Below, piece by piece: positions 5,164 to 40,370 of a DNA stretch of 64,000 bases. The translations under genes were made by a program, and so were the position numbers. Under the pieces are notes generated by a model, which was not told where the DNA came from, did not search any database, and saw only the letters and a program-made list of their open reading frames with translations. The stretch is from Pseudomonadota bacterium. GTDB lineage: Bacteria > Pseudomonadota > Gammaproteobacteria > Burkholderiales > Rhodocyclaceae. Numbering within the stretch: the stretch's first letter is position 1; every line of letters starts with the position of its first letter. The stretch spans positions 1-64,000 of the forward strand of contig JAKOTN010000026.1 in NCBI GenBank assembly GCA_029776255.1. The letters run 5' to 3'.

Positions 5164-5175
5164 TCAAGACGTCGG

Positions 5176-6068: not shown

Positions 6069-6464
6069 ATGAACGTCTCCTATCGAACGCGTCTTGCCAT
6101 TCGCCTCCTCATCGGCCTGCTGGTTGCTGTCGCCACCCTGTCGCACCTGTTCATGGGTCGCAGCGAGGTTCTGTCGATCACCGCCCTCCGCGAGGTGCAA
6201 CTGTCCGATGCCGACATGCTCGCCAATGGCACACGCCCTCACATCGTCGGCATTCTCCAACCCGGCGACCGCGCGTTCGTGTCGGCTTGCCGACAACGAT
6301 CCGGCAAAGTCGATCTGGTGGTCTCTTTTCAGGGCCACCCGGCCATTGTCAACGGCGACCCGAGCGGCTTTGAACTCCATCGGCGACGGGCGGTTGTCCG
6401 TGAGCAGGGTTACCCCACCACCAGTTGCCGGGGATTCTTCTGTGGAATCAGCCAGTGCAACTGA
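6069..6464 (+). CDS. Hypothetical membrane-anchored protein, 131 aa
   Basis: An ATG at 6069 opens a protein with one N-terminal hydrophobic helix (about residues 9-28, LAIRLLIGLLVAVATLSHLF). A soluble part follows that includes SDADMLANGTRPHIVGILQPGDRAF and FQGHPAIVNGDPSGFELHRR. The frame is open further upstream to 5826, but that part has no protein-like character and lacks a ribosome site. The C-terminus (SCRGFFCGISQCN) is Cys-rich. No family is recognised. It is divergent from the phosphatase gene. The case for coding rests on the signal-anchor start, so confidence is limited. Confidence 0.4.
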   Translation: MNVSYRTRLAIRLLIGLLVAVATLSHLFMGRSEVLSITALREVQLSDADMLANGTRPHIVGILQPGDRAFVSACRQRSGKVDLVVSFQGHPAIVNGDPSGFELHRRRAVVREQGYPTTSCRGFFCGISQCN

Positions 6465-6524
6465 AAACCAGGAAACAAATAGTTACCCGACAGTTGGCCT
6501 TCTGGCGATCGCAAGGCGCTCGCG

Positions 6525-6554
6525 TTGACCATGATCGACGTCATCGCTTATCCT
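6525..6554 (+). promoter_or_regulatory. Candidate sigma-70 promoter of the E1-E2-ACP cassette
   Basis: TTGACC (6525-6530), an 18-bp spacer and TATCCT (6549-6554) lie about 110 bp before the TTG start of the dehydrogenase gene. The -35 is close to consensus and the -10 is moderate. No other good pair is visible in the 200-bp gap. Confidence 0.4.
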
Positions 6555-6665
6555 CTGCGGTTCGGCGCGGAATGCTCTATTCTGCTAATCATGCCCTCTC
6601 CTGACCATTGGCTTGTGTCGGCGGCTGCCGGATATTCGTCTTAACTTGGAAGGCGACGCGATAAT

Positions 6666-8657
6666 TTGAATACCACCACCTCCCCGTTTGACCGCGATTC
6701 GCTCGGCAAACCCGTTGTCGGTCCGGACCCCAAAGCGCTGTTTGCCTTTGGTCACCTGCTTCGAGAAACCGAGAAACTGATACTCGATCTCTTTAGCCAG
6801 GGGCTGGTATCCGGAACGACCCACACCTGCCTGGGCCAGGAACTCTGCCAACTGGCGGTGGTTCGCGCGCTAAACGATCCGGACGATCATGTCCTTTCCA
6901 ATCACCGTAACCACGGTCATTTCCTGACCTACTCCGGTGACTTCACTGGCTTGGTCGCGGAAATCATGGGCCGGGCATCGGGCGTGTGCGGCGGTTTTGG
7001 CGGGAGTCAGCATATTGCCTACCGCCATTTTCACAGCAACGGCGTCCAAGCGGGGATGACCGCCATCGGCACGGGCATCGCTCTGGCGCTCAAGGCGAAG
7101 CGTAGCAAGGGAATCGTGGCGATCGTCATCGGCGACGGCACCCTGGGCGAGGGACTGCTGTATGAAAGCATGAACCTCGCGGCAGTATGGAACGCCCCGG
7201 TCCTCTTCGTCGTGGAACACAACGGCATCGCACAAACCACTTACACCCGGCACACCATCGGTGGCGACATCGCCGCGCGCGGACAAGCCTTTGGCCTCGC
7301 CACCTGGCGCGTCGACGATTGCGATCCGGAATTCATCGCCAAAACCACCGGCGTTGTCGAGCAACTGCGCGCCAACGGCGGACCCGGCATGCTGATTATC
7401 GACACCGGTCGCCTCGGCCCGCACAGCAAGGGCGACGACCTCCGCCCCGCCGAGGAACGGGAGGCGCTTCGCCTCCGCGACCCATTGCGCAAACTTGCCG
7501 AAAATCTCGACCCCGCGGAAGTGACGGCCATCGAAGCGGCGAACAAGGTCTTTCTCGACGCCGTCGAATCGTCGGCCATGGCCTCTCCGCCGGCGACTTT
7601 CGACACCACGCCACAACATGCGTTCCGAATGGCGGTGGAAAAGGATTTCGTGAATGCGGCGCCGCTATCCGCCAACGTTCGTCAGGCGCTCAACGACGCG
7701 CTCGGCCAGTTGCTGGCGCACGACGAGGCGGTGGTCGTTCTCGGCGAGGACTTGCACGACCCCTACGGTGGCGCCTTCAAAGTGACGGCGGGCCTGTCGA
7801 GCAAATTCCCGGACCGGGTCATTTCCACACCGATCAGCGAGGCCGGCATCACCGGCGCCGGCATCGGGCTGGCGATGGCCAGCAAGAAACCGGTGATCGA
7901 AATCATGTTCGCCGACTTTCTCACTCTGTGCATGGATCAGATCTATAACCACGCGGTCAAGTTTCCGGGCATGTTTCCCGACACCCGCGTGCCGCTGGTC
8001 ATTCGCACACCGTGCGGTGGCCGGCGCGGCTACGGCCCGACGCACAGCCAGAGTCCGGAAAACATTTTTGTCGCCGTGCCGGGCCTGAGCGTCGTTTATG
8101 GCAGCCATCGGCACAATCCGGGACAACTGCTGATAAACGCCGTGGAACGCTGGCCAAATCCGACGCTATTCCTGGAACACAAGCTGTTGTACGGCGAAAA
8201 GGTCGATCCGCAAGACTACGAACCCCTCGCCGGTGGTGCGGACGACCTGGGAGCGACACTGTTCCCGACGATTCGCCGCGGCGCCAGTGATCCGGACATC
8301 ACACTGCTATCGTATGGCGGCATGCTGCCGGTGGCCGAACGCGCGGCCCGCCAGCTTGAAGACGACGACGAACTGCTGGTCGAGATCGTCGCGCCGGCCC
8401 TTCTGGCACCGCTGCCGCGACAGTCGCTTCTCGCGTTGTTGGCGAACCGCCCACGCATCCTGGTGGTCGAGGAATCGCACCCGCACTTCGGCTTCGGCGC
8501 TGAAATATTGGCGACGCTGGCCGAAAACGGTTTCACCGGCAAGGTGGCACGCTTGGGCACGCCGCCCGCGCCGATCGCCGCCGCGCGCAGCCTCGAAAGC
8601 GCCCAACTCCCCGACGAGGAAGCGATCGTCGCGGCGGTGCTGGGCATGCTGCAATAG
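6666..8657 (+). CDS. Fused E1 alpha/beta subunit of a 2-oxoacid dehydrogenase, TPP-dependent
   Basis: This 663-aa protein joins both E1 subunits in one chain. The N-terminal half (about 20-320) is E1-alpha-like with the thiamine diphosphate motif G156-DGTLGEG and a downstream EHNG. The C-terminal half (about 330-660) is E1-beta-like: VVVLGEDLHDPYGG, then PISEAGITGAGIGLAM. Such enzymes decarboxylate pyruvate, branched-chain 2-oxoacids or acetoin and pass the acyl group to a lipoyl E2. The start is TTG with GGAAGG 10 nt upstream. It is first in a row with E2, ACP and exosortase-A hydrolases, which suggests acyl supply for surface-polysaccharide decoration. The substrate is not readable from sequence. 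Confidence 0.85.
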   Translation: MNTTTSPFDRDSLGKPVVGPDPKALFAFGHLLRETEKLILDLFSQGLVSGTTHTCLGQELCQLAVVRALNDPDDHVLSNHRNHGHFLTYSGDFTGLVAEIMGRASGVCGGFGGSQHIAYRHFHSNGVQAGMTAIGTGIALALKAKRSKGIVAIVIGDGTLGEGLLYESMNLAAVWNAPVLFVVEHNGIAQTTYTRHTIGGDIAARGQAFGLATWRVDDCDPEFIAKTTGVVEQLRANGGPGMLIIDTGRLGPHSKGDDLRPAEEREALRLRDPLRKLAENLDPAEVTAIEAANKVFLDAVESSAMASPPATFDTTPQHAFRMAVEKDFVNAAPLSANVRQALNDALGQLLAHDEAVVVLGEDLHDPYGGAFKVTAGLSSKFPDRVISTPISEAGITGAGIGLAMASKKPVIEIMFADFLTLCMDQIYNHAVKFPGMFPDTRVPLVIRTPCGGRRGYGPTHSQSPENIFVAVPGLSVVYGSHRHNPGQLLINAVERWPNPTLFLEHKLLYGEKVDPQDYEPLAGGADDLGATLFPTIRRGASDPDITLLSYGGMLPVAERAARQLEDDDELLVEIVAPALLAPLPRQSLLALLANRPRILVVEESHPHFGFGAEILATLAENGFTGKVARLGTPPAPIAAARSLESAQLPDEEAIVAAVLGMLQ

Positions 8658-8675
8658 TTTTCTGGAACAATCGTC

Positions 8676-9785
8676 ATGGCAACTCCGATACGCGCGCCCC
8701 GCATCAACAACAACGATGACGAAGTCAAGGTTCTGGCTTTCGATGTCCAACCGGGCACCCTGGTCAAGTCAGGACAAATCGTCGGACAGATCGAAACCGA
8801 CAAGGCGGTTCTCGATGTCGAATCGCCGGCGGACGGCTACGTGCTCGGCTTGCTGGCCAAACCGGACGACGTGGTCAAGGTCGGGAGCATTCTCCTGTGG
8901 CTTGGCGAAAGTCCCGACGAACCGATGCCGGAAGCGCCGGACGAACCGAAGGCCGGCGCGCGCGCGCTGGGAGAGACCACCGCCAAGGCGCGCCTGCTGT
9001 TGAGCAAGCACGGCCTGCGGGCGGACGCCATTCAGCCGATCGACGGGCGAATCACCGTCGAAGCCATCGAGAAACACCTCGCCGCGCGCGGCGGTTCCCA
9101 GAGCGCCGTCAACCGGACGATGGCGCCGGACCGCTCGCCGGAACCCGCGCCGGATGTCCCCGGCGTCGCCGTCAGCCTCAGCAAGGAAGAAAAGGGAATG
9201 GCCGCGACCGTGCTCTGGCATCGCGATCAGGCGGTGGCCGGCTATGTCGAAATCGAATACGACCTGGCGCCCTGGGCCGAATACGCCAAGCGGCTGCAGG
9301 ACGAAAAAGGCTGGATGATGTCCCCCTTGTTGTCGCTGATGGCCTGGCGGCTGACGCAGGCCGTGGCGAAAAACCCGCGTCTGAACGCCACGTTGCTCAA
9401 CGGCCAGCGCTACGAATACGCGACGATCAACCTCGGCTTCACCATTCAGGCCGGTGAGGCGCTCTACCTCGCGGTGGTACGGGATGCCGGTCAAATGGAC
9501 GAGCCCACCTTCGTGAACGCGCTTGGCGATCTGCAGCGTCGGGCGGCCGGGCACAAGCTGCGCGAAGCGGAAACGTCCGGCGCGACCATCGGCTTTTCCA
9601 GCATGGAGCGCTGGAAGGTGACCCGGCACATACCGATCCTACCGCCACAAACGGCGTTCATGGTCGCCCACGCCGCCGGCCGTGACGGCAAGGGCATTCT
9701 CGGCGCCAGCTACGACCATCGCATTCTCAATGGCGCGCAGGTGGTCGGCGCGCTGCGGCATCTCGCCAGACCGGCAACGAATTAG
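8676..9785 (+). CDS. Lipoyl E2 acyltransferase (2-oxoacid dehydrogenase complex) with altered catalytic motif
   Basis: The 369-aa product has a lipoyl domain (1-80; lipoyl Lys43 in IETDKAVLDVES) and a peripheral subunit-binding segment (about 105-132, KHGLRADAIQPIDGRITVEAIEKHL). The C-terminal acyltransferase domain (about 170-365) is short. The usual active-site motif DHRxxDG reads D347-H-R-I-L-N352-G, so Asp is replaced by Asn while His348 remains. It would accept the acyl group from the upstream E1 and pass it on, classically to CoA. It starts 18 bp after the E1 stop and is followed at 15 bp by an acyl carrier protein, hinting that ACP could be the acceptor. Confidence 0.82.
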   Translation: MATPIRAPRINNNDDEVKVLAFDVQPGTLVKSGQIVGQIETDKAVLDVESPADGYVLGLLAKPDDVVKVGSILLWLGESPDEPMPEAPDEPKAGARALGETTAKARLLLSKHGLRADAIQPIDGRITVEAIEKHLAARGGSQSAVNRTMAPDRSPEPAPDVPGVAVSLSKEEKGMAATVLWHRDQAVAGYVEIEYDLAPWAEYAKRLQDEKGWMMSPLLSLMAWRLTQAVAKNPRLNATLLNGQRYEYATINLGFTIQAGEALYLAVVRDAGQMDEPTFVNALGDLQRRAAGHKLREAETSGATIGFSSMERWKVTRHIPILPPQTAFMVAHAAGRDGKGILGASYDHRILNGAQVVGALRHLARPATN

Positions 9786-9800
9786 CACAGGAAAACCGTC

Positions 9801-10070
9801 ATGACGTTGACCAAAGAAAGTCTCATTGCCGCCATCAAGGCCAAGATCGTCGACATCGCCGCGCAAACCGGCGACGACGCCTCGGAACTCGAACCGGACG
9901 ACATCATTCCGGCCACCGGCCTGATCGACTCCACCGGTTTGCTCGACCTGCTGGCCTGGTATGAAAAGACCTACGACATTCCCCTGTCGCAAGAGGAACT
10001 GACCATCGACAATCTCGGTAGCCTGACGCGCATGGCGGAGTTCGTCCTGCGCCGCAAATCTCTTCCTTGA
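9801..10070 (+). CDS. Acyl carrier protein
   Basis: This 89-aa acidic helical protein has the phosphopantetheine attachment Ser44 in LIDSTGLLDLLAWYE, followed by the usual helix 2 and 3 pattern (IPLSQEELTIDNLGSLTRMAEFV). It would carry an acyl chain as a thioester in the cytosol. It sits between the E2 and two exosortase-A-associated hydrolases, the same context in which dedicated ACPs occur in XrtA exopolysaccharide loci. It is not the housekeeping fatty-acid ACP, since no fab gene is near. Partners are inferred from gene order. Confidence 0.85.
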   Translation: MTLTKESLIAAIKAKIVDIAAQTGDDASELEPDDIIPATGLIDSTGLLDLLAWYEKTYDIPLSQEELTIDNLGSLTRMAEFVLRRKSLP

Positions 10071-10107
10071 GCGACGGCAACCGGGACGCCTTTTCGTCTT
10101 TTCGCCA

Positions 10108-10950
10108 ATGAGCGCGCTGCCGACTCCATTCTTTCTCGATCTCTCGGGAAGTCGTCGTTTTGCCGTGCACCACGCGCCAAGCGGCGCGGTCGACACCTGG
10201 GGCCAGATCCTCTGTGTGCCAGCGTTCAACGAAGAAATGAACCGCTGCCGCGGCATGCTCACCCTCCAGGCCCGCGCGCTCGCCGAACAGGGCGTGGGAA
10301 CGTTGCTGGTCGACCTGCACGGCACCGGCGAGAGCGACGGCGTACACGGCGACGCGCGCTGGGAAAATTGGCGGGCGGACATCGCCGCGGGCATCGACTG
10401 GCTTGACGGACAGCCCGGCGGCTGCATCGGCCTGCTCGGCGTCCGGCTGGGGGTGGCGCTGGCCGCCGAAGCGCTCGGCAACACCACGGCGACCGGCCGC
10501 GCGCTGATCGCCTGGCAGCCGGTGATCGACGGCAAGAACTATCTCACCCAATTCATGCGCATGCGCATCGCCGGCAACATGGATCGTACCGACATCCCCA
10601 AGGAAACGACCGCCGACATGCGCGCCACGCTGGCCGCCGGCCGGTCGATCGAGATTGCGGGCTATGAAATCCATCCGGCGCTGACCAGCGCCATCGAAGG
10701 CAGCCGCCTGTCGCGAATCGTGCCGCCGCCCGCCACTCCGATCGCCTGGTTCGAGAAAAAAACCGGCGCCGGCGACGAACTGCCACCGGCCAGCGCGGCG
10801 ACGATCGAGCAATGGCGCTCCCATGGATTGCCCGTGACGGCCCAGGTGTTCGACGGCCCGCCGTTCTGGGCGGTACATGACCGCGCCAACGCCCCCGCGC
10901 TGATCGAACAGACGACCGCATGGATCGGCGGCTTGCGGGACACGCGATGA
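10108..10950 (+). CDS. Alpha/beta hydrolase 2, exosortase A system-associated
   Basis: The 280-aa protein has the alpha/beta-hydrolase outline: oxyanion part CVPAFNEEMNRCRGM, the LLVDLHGTGESDG strand-loop and IGLLGVRLGVALAAEAL. The nucleophile elbow normally GxSxG reads GVRLG here, so the catalytic Ser is absent. This fits the exosortase-A hydrolase 2 group (TIGR03101-type) as I remember it. It may therefore be a scaffold or non-classical acyl-handling protein. It overlaps hydrolase 1 by 4 bp (ATGA), so the two are probably made together. Its substrate is unknown. Confidence 0.8.
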   Translation: MSALPTPFFLDLSGSRRFAVHHAPSGAVDTWGQILCVPAFNEEMNRCRGMLTLQARALAEQGVGTLLVDLHGTGESDGVHGDARWENWRADIAAGIDWLDGQPGGCIGLLGVRLGVALAAEALGNTTATGRALIAWQPVIDGKNYLTQFMRMRIAGNMDRTDIPKETTADMRATLAAGRSIEIAGYEIHPALTSAIEGSRLSRIVPPPATPIAWFEKKTGAGDELPPASAATIEQWRSHGLPVTAQVFDGPPFWAVHDRANAPALIEQTTAWIGGLRDTR

Positions 10951-11870
10951 ATTCGCGCCCGATCCGCTTTGCGTGCGCCGGCGCGCCGCTCATCGGCATG
11001 CTGCACCCGGGGGCGGAAACTGCCGACATGGGCGTGCTGATCATGGTCGCCGGCGGTCCGCAATATCGTATCGGCGGCCACCGTCAACTGGTTTTGTGGT
11101 CCCGCGCCATGTCGGCGGCGGGTTTTCCGGTCTTTCGTTTCGACTCCCGCGGCATGGGCGACAGCTATGGCGACTATCCCGATTTCGAGGCGGTCGAGCC
11201 GGATATCCGTGCGGCCCTCGACCGCTTCTTCGAGGAAGTCCCGACGCTGAAAGAGGTTGTCCTGTGGGGCGAGTGCAATGCCTGTTCGGCGGCACTGTTC
11301 TTCGCGCACAAGGACCCGCGCGTCAAGGGTATCGCCATGCTCAACCCCTGGGTACGGACCGAAGGCGGGGCCGCGAAAACGGTCATCAAGCATTACTACC
11401 TCCAACGACTGATGGAGCGCTCGTTCTGGAGCAAGGTCGCCCGTTTCGAGTTCGACCTCGTCGGCTCGGTGCGCTCGGCGGCGCGACTGTTCAAGCTGGC
11501 GCGCCGGGCGCCGGCGGATCGGGCCGGCACGCCGGCCGATGGCGACCCGGGCGGACTGTCCTTGCCCGACCGCATGCTCCACGGCCTGAGCCGCTTCCAG
11601 GGAAAAATTCTCCTGATCATGAGTGGCCGTGATCTGGTGCCCAAGGAATTCGACGAAGTCGTCAAGAGTTCGCCCGCCTGGCAACGCGAACTGGCGGCGC
11701 ATGGCGTCGTTCGCCATGATCTGATCTACGCCGATCACACGTTTTCGACCAGCGAGTGGCGCGATCAGGTGATCGCCTGGGGAATCGACTGGCTGCAGGA
11801 CATCCGCGACACCACCGGCGGTGTTCCATCCGCCGCGAGACAAACCCGCAACGCGGTCGACAAAGGCTGA
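10947..11870 (+). CDS. Alpha/beta hydrolase 1, exosortase A system-associated
   Basis: The start is ATG 10947 inside the overlap with hydrolase 2. The 307-aa product shows VAGGPQYRIGGHRQLVLWSRAM, the strand FRFDSRGMGDSYGDYP, the elbow GECNACSA, and a late Asp/His region (SGRDLV, YADHTFS). The nucleophile position holds Cys rather than Ser. Proteins of this type (TIGR03100) occur almost only with exosortase A polysaccharide loci and are thought to act in acyl or ester chemistry of the polymer. The neighbours, an ACP and an acyltransferase-like gene, agree. Confidence 0.83.
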   Translation: MNSRPIRFACAGAPLIGMLHPGAETADMGVLIMVAGGPQYRIGGHRQLVLWSRAMSAAGFPVFRFDSRGMGDSYGDYPDFEAVEPDIRAALDRFFEEVPTLKEVVLWGECNACSAALFFAHKDPRVKGIAMLNPWVRTEGGAAKTVIKHYYLQRLMERSFWSKVARFEFDLVGSVRSAARLFKLARRAPADRAGTPADGDPGGLSLPDRMLHGLSRFQGKILLIMSGRDLVPKEFDEVVKSSPAWQRELAAHGVVRHDLIYADHTFSTSEWRDQVIAWGIDWLQDIRDTTGGVPSAARQTRNAVDKG

Positions 11871-11877
11871 AAGACAC

Positions 11878-12726
11878 GTGGCAAAACCGATCATCGAACC
11901 GATCAGCGCGGCGACATTGCCCCAGTTCGCCGCATTCCTCAGTGCCAACATGGGCAACCGGCGGCGTAGCGAAGACTGGATCGCCGGCTTGCAAACCGAC
12001 TGGCACGGCGATCGCCCGAACCACGGCTTCCTCTTGCGCGAGGAACAAACCATCGTCGGCGGCATCGGCGCTTTCTACGCCCAGCGCCGCATTCGCGGGC
12101 AAACCGAGAAATTCTGCAACATCACCAGTTGGTGTGTTCTCGACAGCCATCGCAAATGGAGCATGCCGCTGGCGATGGCGGTGATCAAACAGCCCGGCTA
12201 CCACTTCACCGATTTTTCGCCGACCCAGGTCGTGGGCGGCGTGTTGCGCTTTCTCAAATTCAAGCCATTGGATGAAGCGGTGGCGGTGATCGCCAACGCC
12301 CTCGCCGTTCCCTTGGGTGGAAAAATCGTCGCCACCCCGGCCGGGATCGCACGCGGACTGACCGGCGACGCGCGCCAGATCTGGCAGGATCACGCGCAAT
12401 TCGGCTGGCTGCGCCACGTGCTCGTCGGCCAGCCGGGTCACTGGTGCCACGTGATCTACAAGCGCGACCGCTTCAAGGGTCTCCCGAGCGCGCGAATTGT
12501 CTACCGGAGCGATGCCGACCTGCTGGCGTCGTACTTGCCGCGGCTGGCGTGGCACTTCCTCGGCGCCGGCATGGTCACCACGCAGATCGAGCGCCGTTTT
12601 CTTCGCGACCTGCCTCGCTTCAGCCGCTTGCGCACCGGGTTCAACCCCAAGTTGTACCTTAGCGCCACCCTGCGAGACGAAGACATCGATTATCTCTACT
12701 CCGAATCCGTGGCGCTGGATTTATGA
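11878..12726 (+). CDS. GNAT/acyltransferase-like protein of the exopolysaccharide cassette
   Basis: I chose GTG 11878, 7 bp after the hydrolase 1 stop; the longer frame to 11821 lies inside that gene. The 282-aa product starts VAKPIIEPISAATLPQFAAFL and contains LREEQTIVGGIGAFYAQRRI followed by FCNITSWCVLDSHRKWSMPLAMAVI. This is the strand-loop-helix pattern of a GNAT acyl-CoA/ACP-binding fold. A second half (about 150-280) is of unknown fold. With the ACP and hydrolases upstream, it is a plausible final acyl-transfer enzyme acting on a sugar nucleotide or lipid-linked glycan. That role is inferred. Confidence 0.6.
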   Translation: MAKPIIEPISAATLPQFAAFLSANMGNRRRSEDWIAGLQTDWHGDRPNHGFLLREEQTIVGGIGAFYAQRRIRGQTEKFCNITSWCVLDSHRKWSMPLAMAVIKQPGYHFTDFSPTQVVGGVLRFLKFKPLDEAVAVIANALAVPLGGKIVATPAGIARGLTGDARQIWQDHAQFGWLRHVLVGQPGHWCHVIYKRDRFKGLPSARIVYRSDADLLASYLPRLAWHFLGAGMVTTQIERRFLRDLPRFSRLRTGFNPKLYLSATLRDEDIDYLYSESVALDL

Positions 12727-13094: not shown

Positions 13095-14348
13095 ATGCCC
13101 AACAACAAGCGCCTTCTGATGATTGCCTACCATTTCCCGCCGGTGCGGGTCAGCAGCGGCATTCAGCGGACCTTGAAATTCTGCACCTACCTTCGCGAAT
13201 ACGGCTGGGATCCGCTCGTGCTGACCATTACACCGGCGGCCTACGAAGTCACCAGCACCGACCAGCTCAAGGAAATCCCCGACGATGTCGTCGTCGAACG
13301 CGCTTTCGGTCTGGACAGCGCCCGCCAGCTGGCCATCGGCGGCAGATACTTCCGCTGGATGGCGCAGCCGGACCGCTGGATAAGCTGGTGGCCGGGCGCG
13401 GTATGGACCGGCATGCGGATGATCAAGCGCTATCGACCGGCGGCGATCATGTCCACTTTCCCGATCGCCACCGCTCACCGGATCGGTCTCAGTCTGCGCA
13501 AACGAAGCGGCTTGCCCTGGGTGGCCGATTTCCGGGACTCGATGACCGAGCCGGGCTATCCGCGCGACCCCCTGACCTGGAAAGTGCAGCGCCAGCTTGA
13601 GCAACAGGTGGTGCGGCACTGTTCGAAGGCGTTGTTTACAACGGAGCCGACGCGGGAAATGTACGTCGAGCGCTACCCGGACTACCCCGCCGACCATTGG
13701 GCGGTTATCGAAAACGGTTTCGATGAAGAGAATTTTCTCGAAGCCGAGGAAGACCTCGACCCGCGACCCTTGGGCGCCCCAGGCCAGATCACGCTGGTGC
13801 ATAGCGGCGTGCTCTACCCCGAGGAGCGCGATCCGCGACCCTTCTTCGCGGCGCTGGGCGCACTCAAACGCCGCGGCGACATCGACGGCGCGCGCCTGCA
13901 GGTCGTTTTGCGCGCCACCGGCAGCGACCACCTGTATCGCCCGATGATCGACCAGCTAGACATCGCCGACATCGTTCGTCTCGAACCGGTGGTCGCCTAT
14001 CGGGACGCGCTGCGGGAACTCCTGCGCGCCGACGGGCTGCTGCTGTTCCAGGGCAGCATCTGCAACCATCAGGTGCCCGCCAAGATTTACGAGTATTATC
14101 GCGCCGGCAGGCCGATCCTCGCCCTGGTCGACGTCAACGGAATCAGCGCCAACATGCTGAAAAGCATGCACATTCCAGACATCGTCGACATCACCGACGC
14201 CGAGGGCATCGCGGCGACGATTCTGCGCCTCCTTGACCGTTTGCGGTCTGGCGAAAGCCGTGGCGTGGCACGCGAAGCCGCGGCGAAAAATTCCCGAAAA
14301 TCCCGCAGCGCCGAACTTGCCGAGCTGTTACACCAACTGACACCCTGA
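13095..14348 (+). CDS. Glycosyltransferase family 4-like protein
   Basis: The 417-aa cytosolic protein has a GT-B outline. The N-terminal domain starts KRLLMIAYHFPPVRVSSGIQR. The C-terminal nucleotide-sugar domain contains ITLVHSGVLYPEERD and ends with VPAKIYEYYRAGRPILALVD. The latter replaces the EX7E loop region (KIYEYYRAGRPIL). GT4 enzymes add a sugar from a nucleotide donor with retention. It leads a run with an alpha/alpha-toroid-like protein and a flippase, so it probably builds a surface glycan repeat. Donor and acceptor are unknown. Confidence 0.8.
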   Translation: MPNNKRLLMIAYHFPPVRVSSGIQRTLKFCTYLREYGWDPLVLTITPAAYEVTSTDQLKEIPDDVVVERAFGLDSARQLAIGGRYFRWMAQPDRWISWWPGAVWTGMRMIKRYRPAAIMSTFPIATAHRIGLSLRKRSGLPWVADFRDSMTEPGYPRDPLTWKVQRQLEQQVVRHCSKALFTTEPTREMYVERYPDYPADHWAVIENGFDEENFLEAEEDLDPRPLGAPGQITLVHSGVLYPEERDPRPFFAALGALKRRGDIDGARLQVVLRATGSDHLYRPMIDQLDIADIVRLEPVVAYRDALRELLRADGLLLFQGSICNHQVPAKIYEYYRAGRPILALVDVNGISANMLKSMHIPDIVDITDAEGIAATILRLLDRLRSGESRGVAREAAAKNSRKSRSAELAELLHQLTP

Positions 14349-24562: not shown

Positions 24563-25519
24563 TCATCCCTTGGCGAGCAACATGGCGCAACGCATGGCAA
24601 ACCGTCGTGGCGAGCGATCCCAAGGCGTGAATCGTGGGATAAGAAAAGGATCGGTCCGGTCGCTCGCCACCCCCCAATCGGTAGTGGCGGCGCCAAGAAA
24701 TCCCAAACGTTTCACGATCTCGGCGTCACGCGGGCCCAAGTCCCTTTGGGTGTTCCCGTTTGGATAAGCGAATGAGGTCACCGGCTCTCCGAGAATCGCT
24801 TCCAACTCGGCCTTGCCTTGCGCGACCTCACGTTCCGCGTCGCGCTCCGACAGCTTGCTGAGAATGGGATGCGAATGCGTATGGGAGCCGAGTTCCATTC
24901 CGGCATCGCGGAGGGCCTTGAGTTCGGCGGCATTCATCATCAGCGCGGATTTGTCCGGAAGCCCCGCGCGGCGGGCGATTTCCCGGGCAATCGTCTCGCG
25001 CTGCCGATGTGGAAAATATTTCAATTTATCCAGCACCTCGCCAATGGCGACGAGCCGCCCATGGAGAGCAGTCAAATCGTGTGTCCCAAGTCCGAACTCC
25101 GACCAATCGACAATGCCGTTCGGGCACGCCCGAACCGCCTCGATAATGTCGTCGTTCCACATCCGCCCGCCACCAACGAATTTCGTGGCGATGAAGAACG
25201 TGCCGACCACGCCGTGACGGCGCAATATCGGCGCGGCAACGGAGAAGTTATCTTGGTAGCCGTCGTCGAAAGTAATGCACGCACTGGCGGCCGGCAGACG
25301 ATTAGTCTGTAGGAGAGCAAGCGCTCGGCCAAAGGATAAGACGTTGAAATTCCGACTGACGAAACGCACCATCCAGTCGAATTGCGCCGCATCCGGCTCC
25401 GCGGGCAACAGCGGGTCGTGCCGGGCGACAATGCGATGGAATATGAAAACCAGGAGCTTCGTCCCTCGCTGCTTTATCGACAGCATGCGGAACAGCGGCT
25501 TGTAAATGCCTGACTTCAT
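24563..25519 (-). CDS. Polysaccharide deacetylase (NodB-like)
   Basis: The start is ATG 25519, overlapping the stop of the TPR gene (ATGA). The 318-aa protein has the NodB motifs ACITFDDGYQDN (Asp-Asp) and ELGSHTHSHPILSKL (the HxxxH pair). A late SFAYPNG segment also matches. It removes N- or O-acetyl groups from a polysaccharide in a metal-dependent reaction. The N-terminus (MKSGIYKPLFRMLSIKQRG) is not a clear signal peptide, so its location is open. It is one of two deacetylases in the locus. Confidence 0.85.
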   Translation of the reverse strand: MKSGIYKPLFRMLSIKQRGTKLLVFIFHRIVARHDPLLPAEPDAAQFDWMVRFVSRNFNVLSFGRALALLQTNRLPAASACITFDDGYQDNFSVAAPILRRHGVVGTFFIATKFVGGGRMWNDDIIEAVRACPNGIVDWSEFGLGTHDLTALHGRLVAIGEVLDKLKYFPHRQRETIAREIARRAGLPDKSALMMNAAELKALRDAGMELGSHTHSHPILSKLSERDAEREVAQGKAELEAILGEPVTSFAYPNGNTQRDLGPRDAEIVKRLGFLGAATTDWGVASDRTDPFLIPRFTPWDRSPRRFAMRCAMLLAKG

Positions 25520-26199
25520 TTTTTCGGTGTTTTTCCCGAGCGGATTTCGGCGATCAGATTCTCCAGCGCTTTCACACCGGGCGCATTTTTCCGGCCAGAC
25601 TCCGCCACGGCCAGCGCTTCTCGCGTTTTTCCTAGCTGCATCAGTCTTTGCGCCCACCATACGTAAGGTGGCCAATAATCCGATTTGAGTTCCCAGGCTT
25701 TACGGAACGATTTTTCGGCGTTCACATCATCTCGCGCCAACAAATAGGCTTCTCCGAGTTTTGTGTAAATCTCTGGCAGTAGAACAAAATTCGCCGTCGC
25801 ACGCTCGAGAACATAGCCCATATCATGCACCGCGCCCAACGCATGCGCTCGGCGCTGGTTATAGTCCGCCGAGGTGCTGTAAGCCCTGGAAATGGCGACA
25901 AGAGCCCAGCAATAATGATGAAAATGCTGATAATTTGAACCGAAAGAGGATTCAAGCTGACGCTTTCTCTCCGCGATTAAATATTTTTCAAAATATTTCG
26001 AGACATTCCCCTGCGCACGACAAAATTCCGGGAGCAGCAGGTATTCAGCCTCCGTCATTTCAATGGCGCGCAACGGTGAGGAAAAAAGAAATAACAAAAC
26101 CGTGCCAAACGCCGGCGCCATCGACTTCGTTATCCAGTTTTTCTTGCGCTGTCGCGGCGAATCACCCACTGGAAATGGCCTGATCAAGAACATGATCAA
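25516..26199 (-). CDS. TPR-containing protein of the XrtA locus
   Basis: The 227-aa protein has an N-terminal hydrophobic stretch (about 30-46, APAFGTVLLFLFSSPLRA) that looks like a signal anchor ending at SPLRA. The body has tetratricopeptide-like helices (VLLPEIYTKLGEAYLLARDD, AEKSFRKAWELKSDYWPPY, KTREALAVAESGRK). Such TPR proteins scaffold envelope polysaccharide machines. The start could be 26199 or the next ATG (26193). It is coupled to the deacetylase downstream by a 4-bp overlap. Confidence 0.65.
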   Translation of the reverse strand: MIMFLIRPFPVGDSPRQRKKNWITKSMAPAFGTVLLFLFSSPLRAIEMTEAEYLLLPEFCRAQGNVSKYFEKYLIAERKRQLESSFGSNYQHFHHYCWALVAISRAYSTSADYNQRRAHALGAVHDMGYVLERATANFVLLPEIYTKLGEAYLLARDDVNAEKSFRKAWELKSDYWPPYVWWAQRLMQLGKTREALAVAESGRKNAPGVKALENLIAEIRSGKTPKK

Positions 26200-33315: not shown

Positions 33316-34464
33316 TCACGCGACCCGTAATCGATCATAAAGCGCCCGGTAGCTGTGAGTCATCGCCGCCAAGCTGAATCGTCGCTCCACGGCTTCTCGA
33401 CCGGCACGGCCCGCCGCGCGCGCGGTCTCGGGGTTCAGTGCATAGGCCACGATCTGTCTCGCCATCGATTCCGGGTCATTGGCGGGCACCAGTTCGCCGG
33501 TACGCCCCGCTTCGACCAATTCGCCGTTACCACCCACATCGGTCGCGATAACCGGCAATCCGCACGCCATGGCTTCCAGAATCGTATTGGACACCCCTTC
33601 GGCCAGCGACGGCAGCACAAAACAATCCAGACCCCGCAATATTTCCGGTATGTCGTCGCGCGGCCCCGGCAACCAGGCGCAGGCTGAAACTCCGGCTTTT
33701 TCGAGAATGGCGAGCGCCTGTTCGCGCAGCAGTCCGTCTCCGATCATCAACAATCGCAGACGATTATTGAGTTCCGGACACATTTCCAATGCTCGGACAA
33801 AAGCTCGCGCCAAAGTGGTTTGATCCTTGACAAGCTGCATCCGCCCGACGGTACCCACCAGCCAATAGTCCGGGGCGACGAACGGACAACCGGCGATTTC
33901 TTGCCGAACCTCGGCAGGATGAAAGCGGTGTGCATCGACCCCGTTGTAGATCTGCGCAACTTTGTCCGGAGCAACACCGACCCGCGATTTCAGATAATCG
34001 TCGAGATTTTTTGACAACGCTATGAAATGCGTCACGAATGGTCGATAAATGCGTCGCACCCACTGGTATTTTTTGCTGGCGCCATTCAGATCGTCGACAT
34101 CGCGACCATGCTCGCCGTGTAGTCTGACTGGCACGCCCGCGAGCCATGCGGGAATCACCACCTCAAGCGCGGCCAGATTGCGACTATGGACGATGGCAGG
34201 CCGAAGTTCCCGAAACAGCCGGAACAGGCGACCGTAAATCCAGAACCCGTGACCTGGCGCTTTGTGCAAGGCAATGAATGTCACGTCGTCACGGACGACG
34301 CGCTTCCGAAAATCGGTGATCTCGGTCAGGGAAATCACGGCATGCCGATAGGCGTCGGCGGGCATGCGATTGATCAGATTGACGATGCCGTTCTCAAGGC
34401 CGCCGATATCGAATCGGAACACCACGTGGGCGACCAGCGGACGCCGATCGTCACTCGTTGTCAT
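33316..34464 (-). CDS. Glycosyltransferase, XrtA/PEP-CTERM system (stp2/TIGR03088-like)
   Basis: The 382-aa GT4-type protein begins with RPLVAHVVFRFDIGGLENGIVNL, the start of the XrtA-associated group. It continues with RLHGEHGRDVDDLNG, VGTVGRMQLVKDQTTLARAF, and PSLAEGVSNTILEAMACGLPVI, which holds the EX7E pair. It adds a sugar to the growing repeat. The ATG overlaps the exosortase stop by 4 bp, so it is translated right after XrtA. This pairing supports a shared pathway. Confidence 0.9.
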   Translation of the reverse strand: MTTSDDRRPLVAHVVFRFDIGGLENGIVNLINRMPADAYRHAVISLTEITDFRKRVVRDDVTFIALHKAPGHGFWIYGRLFRLFRELRPAIVHSRNLAALEVVIPAWLAGVPVRLHGEHGRDVDDLNGASKKYQWVRRIYRPFVTHFIALSKNLDDYLKSRVGVAPDKVAQIYNGVDAHRFHPAEVRQEIAGCPFVAPDYWLVGTVGRMQLVKDQTTLARAFVRALEMCPELNNRLRLLMIGDGLLREQALAILEKAGVSACAWLPGPRDDIPEILRGLDCFVLPSLAEGVSNTILEAMACGLPVIATDVGGNGELVEAGRTGELVPANDPESMARQIVAYALNPETARAAGRAGREAVERRFSLAAMTHSYRALYDRLRVA

Positions 34465-36008
34465 CTCGTGTCCAACGTTTGCCGCAAAGCGGCTGCGATG
34501 GCCGGTCCGGCGTCACTCGCAAACTCTTCCAGCGGCGACAACGCGTTGCCTTGCGGATTCCGCAACGTATAGAGAACGACTACCGCCGAGTCATCCCCTC
34601 GTCCAAGCAGTCGCGACATTGCTGTATACACCTTGGCCAGGATGTCGCTCGATGTCCAATGCCCGTCGACCCAATACCACTGCCAAACCTCCAGACGGGT
34701 ATGGAATTGGCCGCGCAACTCCGCCATGCGGACCGAAAACAGTTCGCGGTCGAAAGAGATTTCCCGCTCGCCACCGTCCACCCTCACCCACACCGGATCG
34801 TCGCTGGCCACCAGAACGTTGGTCGAACTGACGAGCCTGTGTCGCTGATCCTGATTACGGTAATACGCCAGAAACACGCCTACCCGCCGACCGTCTTTTT
34901 CGAACACCGCTCGCGTCTTGGCCGCGGATGTCGCGAACCGCGGTTGCCAGTCTGGCAGTCCATGGTCGATGCGCTGCCAGCGCGGAATCGGCTCAAAGGG
35001 AGCCAACCGGGTCACCGGAGCGGCGATATCGTGCTCAATCCGCCATTGCGCCAACGGCCAGATCGCCGCCACCAACACCGTGACAACGGCCACCATCCAC
35101 ACCGGCGACTCGCTTCGCGTGGCGACGATCGGCGGGCCGACTGGCCGTATCGACGGCGTATCGTCCTCACGCCATCGCGTGCCCACCCCGAACATGAGCA
35201 GAATCACCAAGCCAAAAAATATCCAGCCGTAGATCAGATGATCGACACCCACAGCGAGCTTGTTCCCCGAGAGATGACCCAACATGACGATCATGTAGGC
35301 TCGTCCCCAGTTGGCAATCACCGGCACCACGATAGAAATTCCGAAAAAAATCAACCGCCGCCGCCACGATTGGTAGGTCAGATAGGCAAACAAGGTACCC
35401 ACGGTCAGCGAGGCAATCAAATAACGAACACCACTGCACGCCTCGACGACCGACCAAGTCCCGGAGGGAATGACGATCTGCTGCCCTTCGCTGTACACCG
35501 GTACTCCCGACAGGCGCAAGCCAAGCACGGTGAACTTTGCCGTCCACTCCATCAGCTTGGCCTGGGTAAAATCGCCAAACGGAACGGTAAACAACAAGAA
35601 CAGCAGCGGGAAAGCCATGCTTCGTACCACAGGCCAGCCCAGAACCGTCAACACCGCGAACAGAATCATGAAAACCACGGCGAACTGGGGAACCACATTC
35701 ACCGCCGCCAGCTCGCCCAACAACCAAGCGAAACCGGTCGCCAACGACAAGAGAAGCGCCGGATAGCAGCGCTTTGGCGCCAGCACGGCGAGCCGCTCGC
35801 GCATTCGCCAAATCAGCCATAAAGTGATTGGCGGCACGAGAAAGCCGTGCGCATACGTATCGCTGCGGGCCAGGATTCCTCCCATTTCCTGGAGAGTGGT
35901 CCGAAAAAGCAAAAGGATGGCGACCACGGTCAGGAGCACAGCGGGCAACGCCAACCGCCAGCCCGGGTGAACGCCCGGTGACACCTCGCCAGTCATTGCC
36001 TGAGTCAT
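34461..36008 (-). CDS. xrtA: Exosortase A fused to an EpsI-type domain
   Basis: The 515-aa protein has about eight N-terminal helices and a C-terminal soluble domain. Exosortase catalytic residues are visible: Cys191 in EACSGVRYLIASL, Arg236 in NWGRAYM and His257 in GVDHLIYGW. It recognises PEP-CTERM sorting signals in the inner membrane and cleaves them, releasing or attaching target proteins. Residues after about 300 match the EpsI (DUF3485) accessory domain, here in one chain. It sits between a FemAB-like gene and stp2. Fusion to EpsI is a known subtype of XrtA. Confidence 0.93.
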   Translation of the reverse strand: MTQAMTGEVSPGVHPGWRLALPAVLLTVVAILLLFRTTLQEMGGILARSDTYAHGFLVPPITLWLIWRMRERLAVLAPKRCYPALLLSLATGFAWLLGELAAVNVVPQFAVVFMILFAVLTVLGWPVVRSMAFPLLFLLFTVPFGDFTQAKLMEWTAKFTVLGLRLSGVPVYSEGQQIVIPSGTWSVVEACSGVRYLIASLTVGTLFAYLTYQSWRRRLIFFGISIVVPVIANWGRAYMIVMLGHLSGNKLAVGVDHLIYGWIFFGLVILLMFGVGTRWREDDTPSIRPVGPPIVATRSESPVWMVAVVTVLVAAIWPLAQWRIEHDIAAPVTRLAPFEPIPRWQRIDHGLPDWQPRFATSAAKTRAVFEKDGRRVGVFLAYYRNQDQRHRLVSSTNVLVASDDPVWVRVDGGEREISFDRELFSVRMAELRGQFHTRLEVWQWYWVDGHWTSSDILAKVYTAMSRLLGRGDDSAVVVLYTLRNPQGNALSPLEEFASDAGPAIAAALRQTLDTR

Positions 36009-36093: not shown

Positions 36094-37191
36094 CTAACCC
36101 AGGTTGCGCACAATGAACGGCCCGAGCCAGTTCGCCAACCCGATCGGCATCCGCCGCCAAGTATTGATCAGCAATTTGTACTTGGCATTTGACGGGTTGT
36201 TTTGGGGGATGGCATCCCGACGATACAGGCAGTATTCGTAATAAAGCGGTTGTGGCTCGAAACCCCAGTTTTTCTTGAACGCATACGAACCCGTGCCCTG
36301 TTTGCTGCGCCCATAGTCGAACACTTTCAGGCCACGTTCGCAGGAGCGCCGCATCAACTCCCAATATTTAAAATCGTTAGCCGCCAATTCGCGGGCCGAC
36401 GGTTCGTCGCCCGCATAGTACGGCAACACCTCGTCGCGAAAATAAAAACTCAGCACGCTACTCAATGAACGTCCAGAGCCGTCAACAACGGTCAGCACTT
36501 CACAATCGGTGCCGAACACCCGAAAGAGCACTTCGAAGTAACGTCGAGGCAGGGCCGGCGTACCATGGCGATGGACATTGTCGGCATAGAGCTTGAAAAA
36601 GCGTCCAGGATCGAGGTCGATTTCACTACGCAAACCATTCTTGATCCCCTTGCGCACCATTGCCCGCTGTTTGCGCGGTATGGCCTGCATGTTGGCATCG
36701 ACCTCCGGCGCAATCGCCTTGCGGAAGCGAACATAGAGATCCTGTGTCGGCCAGTCGGAGTGGCGTTGCTGAACATTACGTAGCTCCAGATGATCGACGC
36801 CCAATTTTTCGGCAAGCGACCGCGCTTCTTTCTCCAACGCCACCAAAGCTCCCTCGCTGTTGGCCGCGATGCCACCATAAACGGCAAAAGGCAGTGAAAC
36901 CAGCGAATTTCCGAACAAGCGGCTGCGCACATGTGCCAAAGGCAGCACGCCTTCGAAAACGCCCGCGCGCTCGGCATACAGAAAATAAGTCCGGTGACCG
37001 AAGACTTCGCGAACAATAGGCTGCCAACCGGAGCGGTGAAAAAAGGTTGCCTCGGAACACGCATCGACAAAGGCGTCCCAAGACGCCACTGCAACGTCAT
37101 CGTCGGCTTTCAGCGTCTTGACTGAAAGGGCTGCCGGTTCTAGCGAGTCGGCACCGACACCTTGTAATTCCCGCCCACCCGCCTCACTCAC
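36094..37191 (-). CDS. FemAB-like protein, XrtA/PEP-CTERM system
   Basis: I chose GTG 37191, which overlaps the deacetylase stop (GTGA), over the frame to 37431 inside that gene. The 365-aa protein has a GNAT-related FemAB fold: CSEATFFHRSGWQPIVREVFGH, then YAGDEPSARELAANDFKYWELMRR and FDYGRSKQGTGSYAFKKNWG. FemAB-type enzymes use aminoacyl-tRNA to add amino acids to a cell-wall or glycan acceptor. In exosortase A loci (TIGR03019-type) it probably modifies the exopolysaccharide. No signal peptide. The acceptor is inferred. Confidence 0.87.
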   Translation of the reverse strand: MSEAGGRELQGVGADSLEPAALSVKTLKADDDVAVASWDAFVDACSEATFFHRSGWQPIVREVFGHRTYFLYAERAGVFEGVLPLAHVRSRLFGNSLVSLPFAVYGGIAANSEGALVALEKEARSLAEKLGVDHLELRNVQQRHSDWPTQDLYVRFRKAIAPEVDANMQAIPRKQRAMVRKGIKNGLRSEIDLDPGRFFKLYADNVHRHGTPALPRRYFEVLFRVFGTDCEVLTVVDGSGRSLSSVLSFYFRDEVLPYYAGDEPSARELAANDFKYWELMRRSCERGLKVFDYGRSKQGTGSYAFKKNWGFEPQPLYYEYCLYRRDAIPQNNPSNAKYKLLINTWRRMPIGLANWLGPFIVRNLG

Positions 37192-38039
37192 GAAACCACC
37201 CTCGATGTCACCAACCAATCGCCCAGGAAAACTTCGTCCATGCGCCCCCAGTTGAAGTCCCCGAGCAAGCGCCGGAGCCGGCCCTCGGTATGCTGTAGAT
37301 TGACATAGTGGCGAAAACGCGTCCTCGCGTCGATGCCGGGCACCCGCGGCTGCCCAGCGTCTATTTCCCATGGATGAAAGTAAAAAATCACCGGTTGACG
37401 GTCTTGTCGATTCACTTGCTGAAATAACCAATGCGATAGACGGTAGGGCAACAAACGAAAATAGCCCCCCCCGCTCGCCGGCCAGTTGCGGTTAAAAAAA
37501 CGGGCGGTGGTCACCGGCAACTCGAGCAGCCCCGGCCGAACCCGGTGGGTAAACCGCGGTGCGTCCGGCATGCCGTAGTGGTCGTGACGAATCGGGTAGA
37601 TGCTTGAACTGTATCGATAACCGGCACGCTCAAGACAATCGAAGGCCCAAAGATTACCCTCGCCGATTGAAAAACTCGGCGCGCGATAACCCTTGATCTC
37701 CTGGCCGGACAGGTCTTCAAGCAACATCTTGGCTCGGCCGATGTCGGCAGTGAAATCGGCTTCCGTCAAATCGCTGGCTCGCTCATGACCGTAGCCATGA
37801 CTGGCCAACTCATGGCCTCCATCAGCGATCCGACGGACGAGTTGAGGATAGCGTTCAGCGATCCAGCCCAAGGTAAAAAAAGTGGCCTTGATCCGTCGCT
37901 CGTCAAGCAACAAGAGGATACGCTCGACGTTTCGCTCGACCCGGCATTCACAGGTATCCCATTGATGGCGCGGAATGTAAGGCGCCAGAGCGGACACTTG
38001 AAAATAGTCTTCGACATCAATGGTTAGCGCGTTAATCAA
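37188..38039 (-). CDS. Polysaccharide deacetylase, XrtA-associated (DUF3473 type)
   Basis: The 283-aa protein starts MINALTIDVEDYFQVSALAPY, where the Asp pair belongs to the metal site. It has IADGGHELASHGYGHERASDL with the HxxxH ligands, and a C-terminal DUF3473-type extension (RQPVIFYFHPWEIDAGQPRV). It removes acetyl groups from a glycan. This form occurs next to exosortase A genes (TIGR03006-type). Its start lies 20 bp after the epimerase stop, and its stop overlaps the FemAB-like start, so the three form one unit. Confidence 0.9.
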   Translation of the reverse strand: MINALTIDVEDYFQVSALAPYIPRHQWDTCECRVERNVERILLLLDERRIKATFFTLGWIAERYPQLVRRIADGGHELASHGYGHERASDLTEADFTADIGRAKMLLEDLSGQEIKGYRAPSFSIGEGNLWAFDCLERAGYRYSSSIYPIRHDHYGMPDAPRFTHRVRPGLLELPVTTARFFNRNWPASGGGYFRLLPYRLSHWLFQQVNRQDRQPVIFYFHPWEIDAGQPRVPGIDARTRFRHYVNLQHTEGRLRRLLGDFNWGRMDEVFLGDWLVTSRVVS

Positions 38040-40361: not shown

Positions 40362-40370
40362 TCCGATCAA

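Follow-up and report, generated by a model that had tools for sequence, protein, structure and literature searches.

The genes for a fused E1, a short E2, an acyl carrier protein (ACP) and a GNAT-fold acyltransferase (AT) in the 64,000-nucleotide stretch of DNA analysed here (the window) make up a conserved module, which is not restricted to exosortase A systems. We tentatively propose that the cassette supplies an acyl group and transfers it. E1/E2 would produce a short hydroxyacyl-ACP, most likely glycolyl-ACP, and AT would pass the acyl group to an amine, probably that of a sugar. The gene content, its conservation and co-occurrence, the placement of E1 and the fold of AT are observed; all reaction steps, the acyl group, the acceptor and the task of the hydrolases are predicted from them.

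Gene organization

The six consecutive plus-strand ORFs announced in the preliminary description are real and occupy positions 6666-12726 (Table 1). Hydrolase 2 lies upstream of hydrolase 1. The start of hydrolase 1 is probably at 10947, with a 4-base overlap with hydrolase 2 (the longest ORF begins at 10920). That of AT is probably the GTG at 11878, where most related sequences begin (longest ORF from 11821). The window as a whole is an exosortase A polysaccharide locus, with both hydrolases, exosortase A (XrtA) some 26 kb beyond E1, TIGR partners, and export and chain-length genes.

Table 1 Features of the cassette and of its surroundings in the window
Feature	Coordinates	Strand	Basis
Fused E1 (alpha+beta), ThDP enzyme, 663 aa, TTG start	6666..8657	+	Pfam E1_dh, Transket_pyr, Transketolase_C
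Short E2, 369 aa, one lipoyl and one 2-oxoacid_dh acyltransferase domain	8676..9785	+	Pfam
ACP, 89 aa	9801..10070	+	PP-binding, 19.8 bits (cut-off 20.8)
Alpha/beta hydrolase 2, exosortase A system-associated	10108..10950	+	TIGR03101, 248 bits (cut-off 202.75)
Alpha/beta hydrolase 1	10947..11870	+	TIGR03100, 303.1 bits (cut-off 168.45)
AT, GNAT-fold acyltransferase, 282 aa	11878..12726	+	Structure model and Foldseek
Family 4-like glycosyltransferase, after the cassette	13095..14348	+	Pfam Glyco_trans_4_4
Polysaccharide deacetylase, candidate	24566..25675	-	PF01522, 80.4 bits (cut-off 23.1)
XrtA with EpsI domain (context, not core)	34464..36008	-	TIGR03109, 340.9 bits (cut-off 208)
XrtA system polysaccharide deacetylase, other candidate (context)	37191..38039	-	TIGR03006, 455.4 bits (cut-off 276.2)

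The cassette had also been described as devoid of dihydrolipoamide dehydrogenase (E3). A motif search agrees with this: none of the ORFs of the window or of the relatives' loci carries the E3 redox motif. Among all loci examined, the motif occurs only in L001 and L002, which adjoin the genome's two other E2 genes.

Conservation of the module

Relatives were defined by an E1 at least 51% identical to that of the window, which gave 36 loci from Pseudomonadota and Acidobacteriota. E2 follows E1 in all 36; the contig ends inside E2 in L043, L044, L045 and L054, and in L058 E2 is split across two frames. ACP is present in every locus that extends far enough (32/32), right behind E2 in 30 of them and about 7.5 kb upstream of E1 in L037 and L061. 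The order E1-E2-ACP is preserved across two phyla. AT is found in 25 of the 36 loci and has no match in the other 11, including L044, L054 and L059, whose contigs stop near the module. Only 10 relatives carry both XrtA-type hydrolases.

In a survey of 250 genomes of the order Burkholderiales, four carry a module E1 (at least 62% identical) and 15 more carry E1s of at most 37% identity. The module ACP (above 100 bits) is confined to the same four genomes, and AT occurs in these four and in two others. Co-occurrence with E1 gives Fisher p values of 6e-9 for ACP and 9e-8 for AT, uncorrected for kinship and drawn from two lineages only.

Proposed reaction sequence

E1 would split its donor with thiamine diphosphate and hand the C2 fragment to the lipoyl group of the short E2, whose catalytic domain would then load the phosphopantetheine arm of the adjacent ACP with the acyl group. 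The lipoyl lysine of E2, Lys43, is invariant (24/24), as is Ser44 of ACP (23/23 homologues), and the E2 catalytic His348 is absent only from two lipoyl-hexapeptide rows, L062 and L065. No peripheral subunit-binding domain was matched by Pfam in E2, where a segment of similar pattern is recognizable by eye. Reoxidation of dihydrolipoyl would fall to an E3 whose gene lies in another part of the genome.

The preliminary description had suggested that an acyl group is made on site and transferred to ACP. The E1/E2 pair next to ACP bears out the genetic part of this proposal; as for the transfer, we infer with good support that E1/E2 charges the dedicated ACP. From ACP, AT would transfer the acyl group to a free amine, most likely that of a sugar residue bared by a deacetylase. 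In the lineage of the window, where the module flanks the two XrtA-type hydrolases, these may act as editing thioesterases.

Somewhat more speculatively, the module may represent a CoA-independent sugar decoration, in which a deacetylase/GNAT pair replaces the acetyl group of an amino sugar by a ketose-derived glycolyl group that has been oxidized on lipoyl and channelled by ACP. The same chemistry would then serve antibiotics and cell surfaces. A deeper branch, which carries fusions of lipoyl and hexapeptide domains, may even skip ACP and acylate the sugar directly from lipoyl. If true, this would provide a CoA-free route to the acyl groups of bacterial surface sugars and link an orphan element of some exosortase A loci to a reaction that can be tested. 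A homologous enzyme set, in part from cultured methanotrophs, would then also be at hand for chemistry so far reported for antibiotic clusters.

AT and the acceptor

AT has no family match in Pfam or NCBIfam. Its structure was modelled confidently as a GNAT fold (pLDDT 93.1), with 2ozg as the best Foldseek hit (E 7.2e-11). GNAT enzymes mostly use CoA thioesters as donors, a point against the proposal; here, it is the neighbouring genes that suggest acyl-ACP. Of the two E1-less AT homologues of the order, L127 adjoins genes for FkbH and an ACP, and L128 adjoins an NRPS protein of C-A-T-TE architecture. FkbH is a glyceryl-ACP loader. Such loaders represent another route to hydroxyacyl-ACP, seen beside an AT homologue in this one locus, but the enzyme and the donor differ from those of the module.

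A CE4-fold protein is encoded beside AT in 15 of the 36 loci, none of them among the 10 with hydrolases. The two are fused in L060 and L056 and adjacent in the 13 others. The window has no homologue of this AT-associated protein and contains two other deacetylases (Table 1); the PF01522 deacetylase also has a homologue in the E1-less locus L125.

A sugar acceptor is weakly indicated. Homologues of the window's glycosyltransferase, flippase, DegT or asparagine-synthase-like genes occur in 17 of the 36 loci (that of the glycosyltransferase following the cassette in 6), and the best matches of the CE4 partner are peptidoglycan and polysaccharide deacetylases. Moreover, three more distant relatives encode the lipoyl-hexapeptide fusion beside E1. 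In the one searched, the nearest PDB entries are sugar acetyltransferases, including perosamine N-acetyltransferase. The indication is weak because the other 19 loci, some of them on short contigs, show no homologue of these polysaccharide genes. In the Methylomonas locus L036 the module is flanked by housekeeping genes, so that a polysaccharide acceptor lacks support there. E1/E2 may instead charge ACP for delivery to another acceptor: a small molecule, a hydroxyl group, or the amine of a lipid or of LPS. The acceptors used by GNAT folds are diverse, ArnD is among the matches of the CE4 partner, and the nearest named families of ACP, albeit far under cut-off, are the ornithine-lipid and cispentacin ACPs. 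Against the polysaccharide genes, the deacetylase matches and the kinship of the fusion, we regard such an acceptor as rather unlikely and retain a sugar amine in the proposed model.

E1 and the nature of the acyl group

Pfam and NCBIfam recognize E1 and E2 only as pyruvate dehydrogenase-like proteins, far under the equivalog cut-offs (E1 scores 175.7 bits with TIGR03182, cut-off 393.85). Pyruvate and branched-chain 2-oxoacid dehydrogenase complexes share with the module the E1 and E2 domains, the lipoyl lysine and the catalytic histidine of the E2 core. The module differs from them in having no E3-motif ORF, an ACP instead, and an E1 on a separate branch. In the E1 tree, the module E1s cluster with those of three NRPS/PKS-type loci (RenH and two Streptomycetaceae loci, not QncN or NapB) and of the three lipoyl-hexapeptide loci, apart from all generic rows. 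This split has an SH-aLRT support of 100 with 33 versus 39 rows, and bootstrap and SH-aLRT supports of 100 each with 20 versus 20 rows; RenH forms a long branch. The three E1 groups have in common signature residues that are found in at most 25% of 42 generic E1s, among them Thr51, Thr54, Cys55, Gln115, Ser124, Gln128, Thr159, Gly161, Tyr166, Ser254, Lys255, Asp258, Arg454, Gly455, Tyr456 and Thr459.

These relatives favour a ketose phosphate or hydroxypyruvate over an ordinary 2-oxoacid as the putative donor of E1. The same machinery could instead carry another acyl group, E1 being a true decarboxylase of pyruvate or branched-chain 2-oxoacids and ACP holding an acetyl or branched acyl group. 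The family assignments fit this, yet E1 falls outside the sampled generic E1s and many residues near its conserved histidines differ. Furthermore, a separate acetyl-ACP route would bring little gain since acetyl-CoA is plentiful. We consider this alternative unlikely.

A glycolyl group, moderately supported, is proposed from the architecture and from loci with a comparable set of genes. Two-component transketolase/ACP cassettes are reportedly treated by Peng et al. 2012. On a renieramycin plasmid of a sponge symbiont, annotated as a natural-product plasmid with Ren genes, RenH is a fused E1 and RenI, encoded after it, a short lipoyl E2, as in the module. RenH is 39% identical to the window E1 and has the top E1 score among the best 30 of 81 plasmid records (424 bits, versus at most 304); no homologue of the module ACP was found on that plasmid. 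The E2s of the module and of the NRPS/PKS-type loci are only 23-29% identical and form long branches. On a Streptomyces plasmid, the gene for a condensation-domain protein is followed by consecutive genes for ACP, E1 alpha, E1 beta and E2, the gene set that PMC6335953 gives for SclQ1-4 and QncN/L/M.

The NRPS cassettes QncN-QncL-QncM, NapB-NapD-NapC, DinU-DinS-DinT and SclQ1-4, described in PMC6335953 and PMC7570522, share with the window ThDP E1 parts, a lipoyl/acyltransferase E2 part and a separate ACP. By the same sources, E1 beta and E2 parts are in one protein in Qnc and Nap, whereas the window E1 is a single fused chain. A peptide synthetase takes the place held in the window by AT with the hydrolases, and in other loci by AT with the CE4-fold protein; the module of the window sits in a polysaccharide locus, not in an NRPS cluster. 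By analogy with the published Qnc/Scl cassettes, the acyl group would most likely be glycolyl (hydroxyacetyl), derived from a ketose phosphate or hydroxypyruvate.

Relation to exosortase A

The preliminary description saw in the cassette a system dedicated to exosortase A and acting with the two hydrolases. For 11 of the 36 relatives, XrtA is linked, lying on the contig of the module and no more than 35 kb away. In 7 it is unlinked, and in 10 no XrtA match exceeds the cut-off (four of these 10 have weaker exosortase matches); the other 8 are undecidable. Thus, 17 of the 28 decidable relatives have no linked XrtA, which, as regards linkage, is an arrangement that the description itself had named as contrary to its proposal, and these counts refute a dedicated system as a general rule. 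Conversely, within the hydrolase subtype every decidable relative (8 of 8) has a linked XrtA (two more are undecidable), so that recruitment into XrtA loci is real but local. XrtA also occurs somewhere in all four E1 genomes of the order (4/60 versus 0/190, p 0.003, uncorrected). However, hydrolase 2 exceeds its cut-off in 35 genomes of the order, and 34 of these lack the module E1, the exception being the window's own. Four E1-less hydrolase loci contain ligase, decarboxylase and hydrolases, with no match to AT or to a module-type ACP. Taken together, we judge dedication to exosortase A very unlikely.

In other exosortase A loci of the order, an AMP ligase is often near, lying within 10 kb in 22 of the 35 hydrolase-2 genomes (hand count). 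The window's genome has AMP ligase and decarboxylase on another contig. In 7 of the 10 relatives with hydrolases, the AMP-forming XrtA ligase is also in the locus, and it could be an alternative charger of the same ACP. A search of the literature, mostly outside subscription journals, returned no paper joining exosortase and acyl carrier protein with polysaccharide or pyruvate dehydrogenase.

Finally, an acetoin or 2-oxoacid catabolic enzyme present by chance is highly improbable: the order does have other fused E1s (L007-L012, with at most 37% identity), but they form a separate branch, their loci of about 5 kb show no match to the module E2, ACP or AT, and the synteny of the module across phyla argues against a chance presence.

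Organization of the cassette

As the preliminary description had proposed, six packed genes are found on the plus strand, where they are borne out by ORFs and family matches. They encode a fused ThDP enzyme (E1), a short lipoyl acyltransferase (E2), an acyl carrier protein (ACP), two exosortase A system-associated hydrolases and a putative acyltransferase (AT). Intergenic gaps are at most 37 bases, with one 4-base overlap. That no dihydrolipoamide dehydrogenase (E3) stands beside E1 and E2 also holds: a motif search found no E3 redox motif in the window, nor in the loci of the relatives described below. In the window's genome, ORFs with the E3 motif adjoin its two other E2 genes. The cassette is convergent to the exosortase A polysaccharide locus of the minus strand. 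NCBIfam matches over the cut-off in this locus are to exosortase A (XrtA), chain-length, export, kinase, FemAB, deacetylase, O-ligase and glycosyltransferase families.

Phage-like genes lie immediately 5' of the cassette. Besides a tyrosine integrase (PHROG 1, 229 bits), they comprise Cox-like and regulator genes and a 491-residue protein of PHROG 11698, a family without assigned function.

Features of the window and of the compared loci
Feature	Location	Positions	Strand	Remark
Phage-like genes	window	480-5051
Tyrosine integrase	window	4038-5051
Fused E1	window	6666-8657	+
Short E2	window	8676-9785	+
ACP	window	9801-10070	+
Hydrolase 2	window	10108-10950	+	TIGR03101
Hydrolase 1	window	10947-11870	+	TIGR03100
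AT	window	11878-12726	+	no family match
Deacetylase	window	24566-25675
Exosortase A locus	window	26276-45465	-
AMP ligase and PLP decarboxylase	C139 (L122)	3893-6809
AT homologue with FkbH	L127	9085-13603
AT homologue with NRPS protein	L128	4417-9685
CE4-AT fusion	L060	13411-15270
CE4-AT fusion	L056	9079-10899
Two replacement proteins	L050	13397-15448
E2 in two frames	L058	11983-13024
PF02522 protein	L058	13342-14172
Lipoyl-hexapeptide protein	L062	11937-13004
Lipoyl-hexapeptide protein	L065	5374-6444
Lipoyl-hexapeptide protein	L063	2489-3514

A conserved E1-E2-ACP core

Relatives were sought in one genome per species (84,980 species), using an alignment of four E1s as the query, and at least 80 E1 loci were kept. 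Thirty-six of them, whose E1 shares 51% identity or more with that of the window, are considered here as relatives (L029-L061, L064, L066 and the partial L069). Below these come three E1s at 42-43% identity (L062, L063 and L065), the remainder being at 36% or less. Among the loci kept, the closest E1 (77% identity) is that of an Accumulibacter MAG. The relatives belong to Pseudomonadota (Rhodocyclales, Burkholderiales, Hydrogenophilales, Gallionellaceae, Methylomonas, several Alphaproteobacteria and Magnetococcales) and to Acidobacteriota.

E2 comes after E1 in all 36 relatives, four contigs ending within E2. The ACP is present in the 32 loci that reach that far and is immediately 3' of E2 in 30 of them; in L037 and L061 it is located about 7.5 kb upstream of E1, together with the hydrolases. 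The AT was found in 25 of the 36. Rows for the alignments (24 for E2, 23 for ACP, 25 for AT) were selected among the 36 relatives, L062 and L065. The lipoyl lysine of E2 is unchanged in 24/24 rows and the ACP serine in 23/23. Replacement of the Asp after the E2 catalytic His by Asn, Ser, Thr or another residue was dropped as the mark of a dead enzyme, as this position varies throughout the family. Some E2s are known with Asn after the catalytic His. The E2 coding sequence of L058 is divided between two reading frames, by either a true frameshift or a sequencing error.

Co-inheritance was followed in 250 genomes of the order by searches that score the best few candidates per genome, absences holding at that sensitivity. 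The four genomes with a module-type E1, and no others, have the module-type ACP at 129-137 bits; elsewhere the score is at most 42 bits. The AT is found in these four and in two more. Co-occurrence with E1 gives Fisher p values of 6e-9 (ACP) and 9e-8 (AT), the four genomes representing only two lineages.

Linkage to exosortase A

The cassette had been described as a dedicated exosortase A system. XrtA and E1 were each located by whole-genome searches of the 36 relatives. XrtA over the cut-off lies within 35 kb of E1 on the same contig in 11. In seven it is unlinked, being 2.6 Mb distant or on a different contig although the E1 contig extends at least 28 kb on each side. No XrtA over the cut-off was found in ten, four of which have weaker exosortase matches. 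In the other eight, contigs are too short to decide. Thus, 17 of the 28 decidable relatives have no linked XrtA, and a dedicated system is rejected as a general rule. Within the subtype carrying the hydrolases, XrtA is linked in all eight decidable relatives. Of the 250 order genomes, 35 score over the cut-off for hydrolase 2 and 60 for XrtA; four have a module-type E1. One of these four is the window's genome; the other three share a different genus, and their XrtA is on another contig. XrtA is present somewhere in all four (p 0.003, uncorrected; 250 genomes). The module is therefore independent of XrtA; it was recruited to XrtA loci along the lineage of the window. The exosortase A link is secondary.

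We also considered that E1/E2 replaces the XrtA-associated AMP ligase. This is rejected, as 7 of 10 hydrolase-type relatives hold both in the locus; the window's genome also retains the ligase, on another contig. There, the ligase and a PLP decarboxylase are apart from the hydrolases (C139). In 22 of the 35 hydrolase-2 genomes of the order the arrangement differs, with the AMP ligase within 10 kb. In several relatives both genes are upstream of E1, a place from which they are absent in the window.

Partners of the acyltransferase

In ten loci, which resemble the window in this respect, the two hydrolases are between ACP and AT or adjoin them. A further fifteen lack the hydrolases and instead encode a protein of about 330-350 residues adjoining the AT; the two arrangements never occur in one locus among the 36 relatives. 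This partner has no match in Pfam or NCBIfam. Its model (pLDDT 80.1) resembles CE4 deacetylases, the top structural match being a peptidoglycan deacetylase (E 8.6e-9), with ArnD and PuuE among others. The AT itself is modeled as a GNAT fold (pLDDT 93.1; top structural match, E 7.2e-11). Outside the window, the tie between AT and a deacetylase-like enzyme is strong because the CE4-fold partner occurs in 15 loci and is fused to the AT as a single polypeptide in L060 and L056. No homologue of this partner was found in the window, whose only deacetylases are two other proteins; the one at 24566-25675 gave no significant match to it.

The AT adjoins a carrier-protein-loading enzyme in the three settings seen. 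Two of them are in genomes without the module E1. In L127, the AT homologue is beside FkbH (TIGR01686, 315 bits), an ACP and a MaoC-SDR protein; in L128, beside an NRPS condensation-adenylation-carrier-thioesterase protein. The L127 group adjoins genes of flagellar appearance.

In acidobacterial L047, L050, L053 and L055, two other conserved proteins replace the AT and the CE4-fold protein. They have no Pfam or NCBIfam match where tried and were not counted as a deacetylase and a transferase. L058, which has no AT, encodes an aminoglycoside 3-N-acetyltransferase-family protein (PF02522, 108.5 bits) right after the ACP.

Kinship with antibiotic-cluster enzymes

Among the best 30 of 81 plasmid matches for E1, the top one is RenH of a renieramycin plasmid (424 bits, the next 304), followed in that record by RenI, a lipoyl E2. 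For E2, the top match among the best 40 of 49 is on a Streptantibioticus plasmid (91 bits, the next 73), where E1 alpha and beta genes adjoin it and a PKS gene is near. A Streptomyces plasmid carries a condensation-domain gene and then ACP, E1 alpha, E1 beta and E2 consecutively.

From 85 E1 rows, a 72-row tree (13 near-duplicate or poor rows omitted), a slower 40-row tree and an 84-row residue comparison were made. In the first, module E1s, RenH, the E1s of the two other plasmid loci and those of L062, L063 and L065 are split from 39 generic E1s (SH-aLRT 100); the second gives the same split (100/100). About sixteen residues, including Lys255 and Arg454, are common to module-side E1s and rare in 42 generic ones. 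The E2 tree agrees; its branches are very long, and just seven generic sequences are included. A catabolic fused E1 like the others of the order (L007-L012) is rejected by this separate branch and by their loci of about 5 kb, in which no match to the module's E2, ACP or AT was obtained.

PMC6335953 describes QncN, QncL and QncM as making and attaching a C2 glycolicacyl unit, and a ketose phosphate as the proposed source for SclQ1-4. A comparable role for DinS, DinU and DinT is stated in PMC7570522 on the ground of homology to Nap. The likeness of our module to the Qnc, Nap, Scl and Din cassettes is one of described gene content; the E1 trees cover RenH and the two other plasmid loci.

Proposed function

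The module is real, conserved and little described. A literature search covering few subscription journals returned no match for exosortase and acyl carrier protein with polysaccharide or pyruvate dehydrogenase. Judged from sequence, this is a putative glycolyl-ACP cassette of a variant kind, which occurs in polysaccharide loci and elsewhere; its acyl group and acceptor are predicted.

A donor would load ThDP on E1, and the C2 unit would be oxidised onto the E2 lipoyl. The acyl group would pass from there to the ACP, and the AT would transfer it to an amine; the hydrolases could edit mischarged ACP. We tentatively favor such an acyl-supply and transfer module, with glycolyl to a sugar as the most likely reaction. 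Charging of the ACP by E1/E2 is well supported by strict synteny and co-inheritance, and glycolyl moderately by E1 kinship and architecture. A sugar amine as acceptor is more weakly supported, by the CE4-fold partner of the AT, the lipoyl-hexapeptide variant and 17/36 loci with polysaccharide-gene homologues. Two things count against a sugar acceptor: in the remaining 19 loci, of which some lie on short contigs, no homologue of the polysaccharide genes in the window was found, and in Methylomonas (L036) housekeeping genes surround the module. We give somewhat less credence to an exchange of glycolyl for acetyl on an amino sugar by the deacetylase/GNAT pair, in which the glycolyl would be ketose-derived and its supply CoA-independent.

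A lipoyl-hexapeptide variant

Directly after the E1s of 42-43% identity (L062, L063, L065), a lipoyl domain is joined to a hexapeptide-repeat (left-handed beta-helix) acyltransferase domain that replaces the E2 core; the L063 lipoyl domain scores under the cut-off. In this variant the acyl group may go directly from lipoyl to sugar. In the PDB, the L062 protein is related to sugar acetyltransferases: an unnamed acetyltransferase ranks first (125 bits), and perosamine N-acetyltransferase and QdtC score lower. Two DegT-like aminotransferase genes are nearby in L062.
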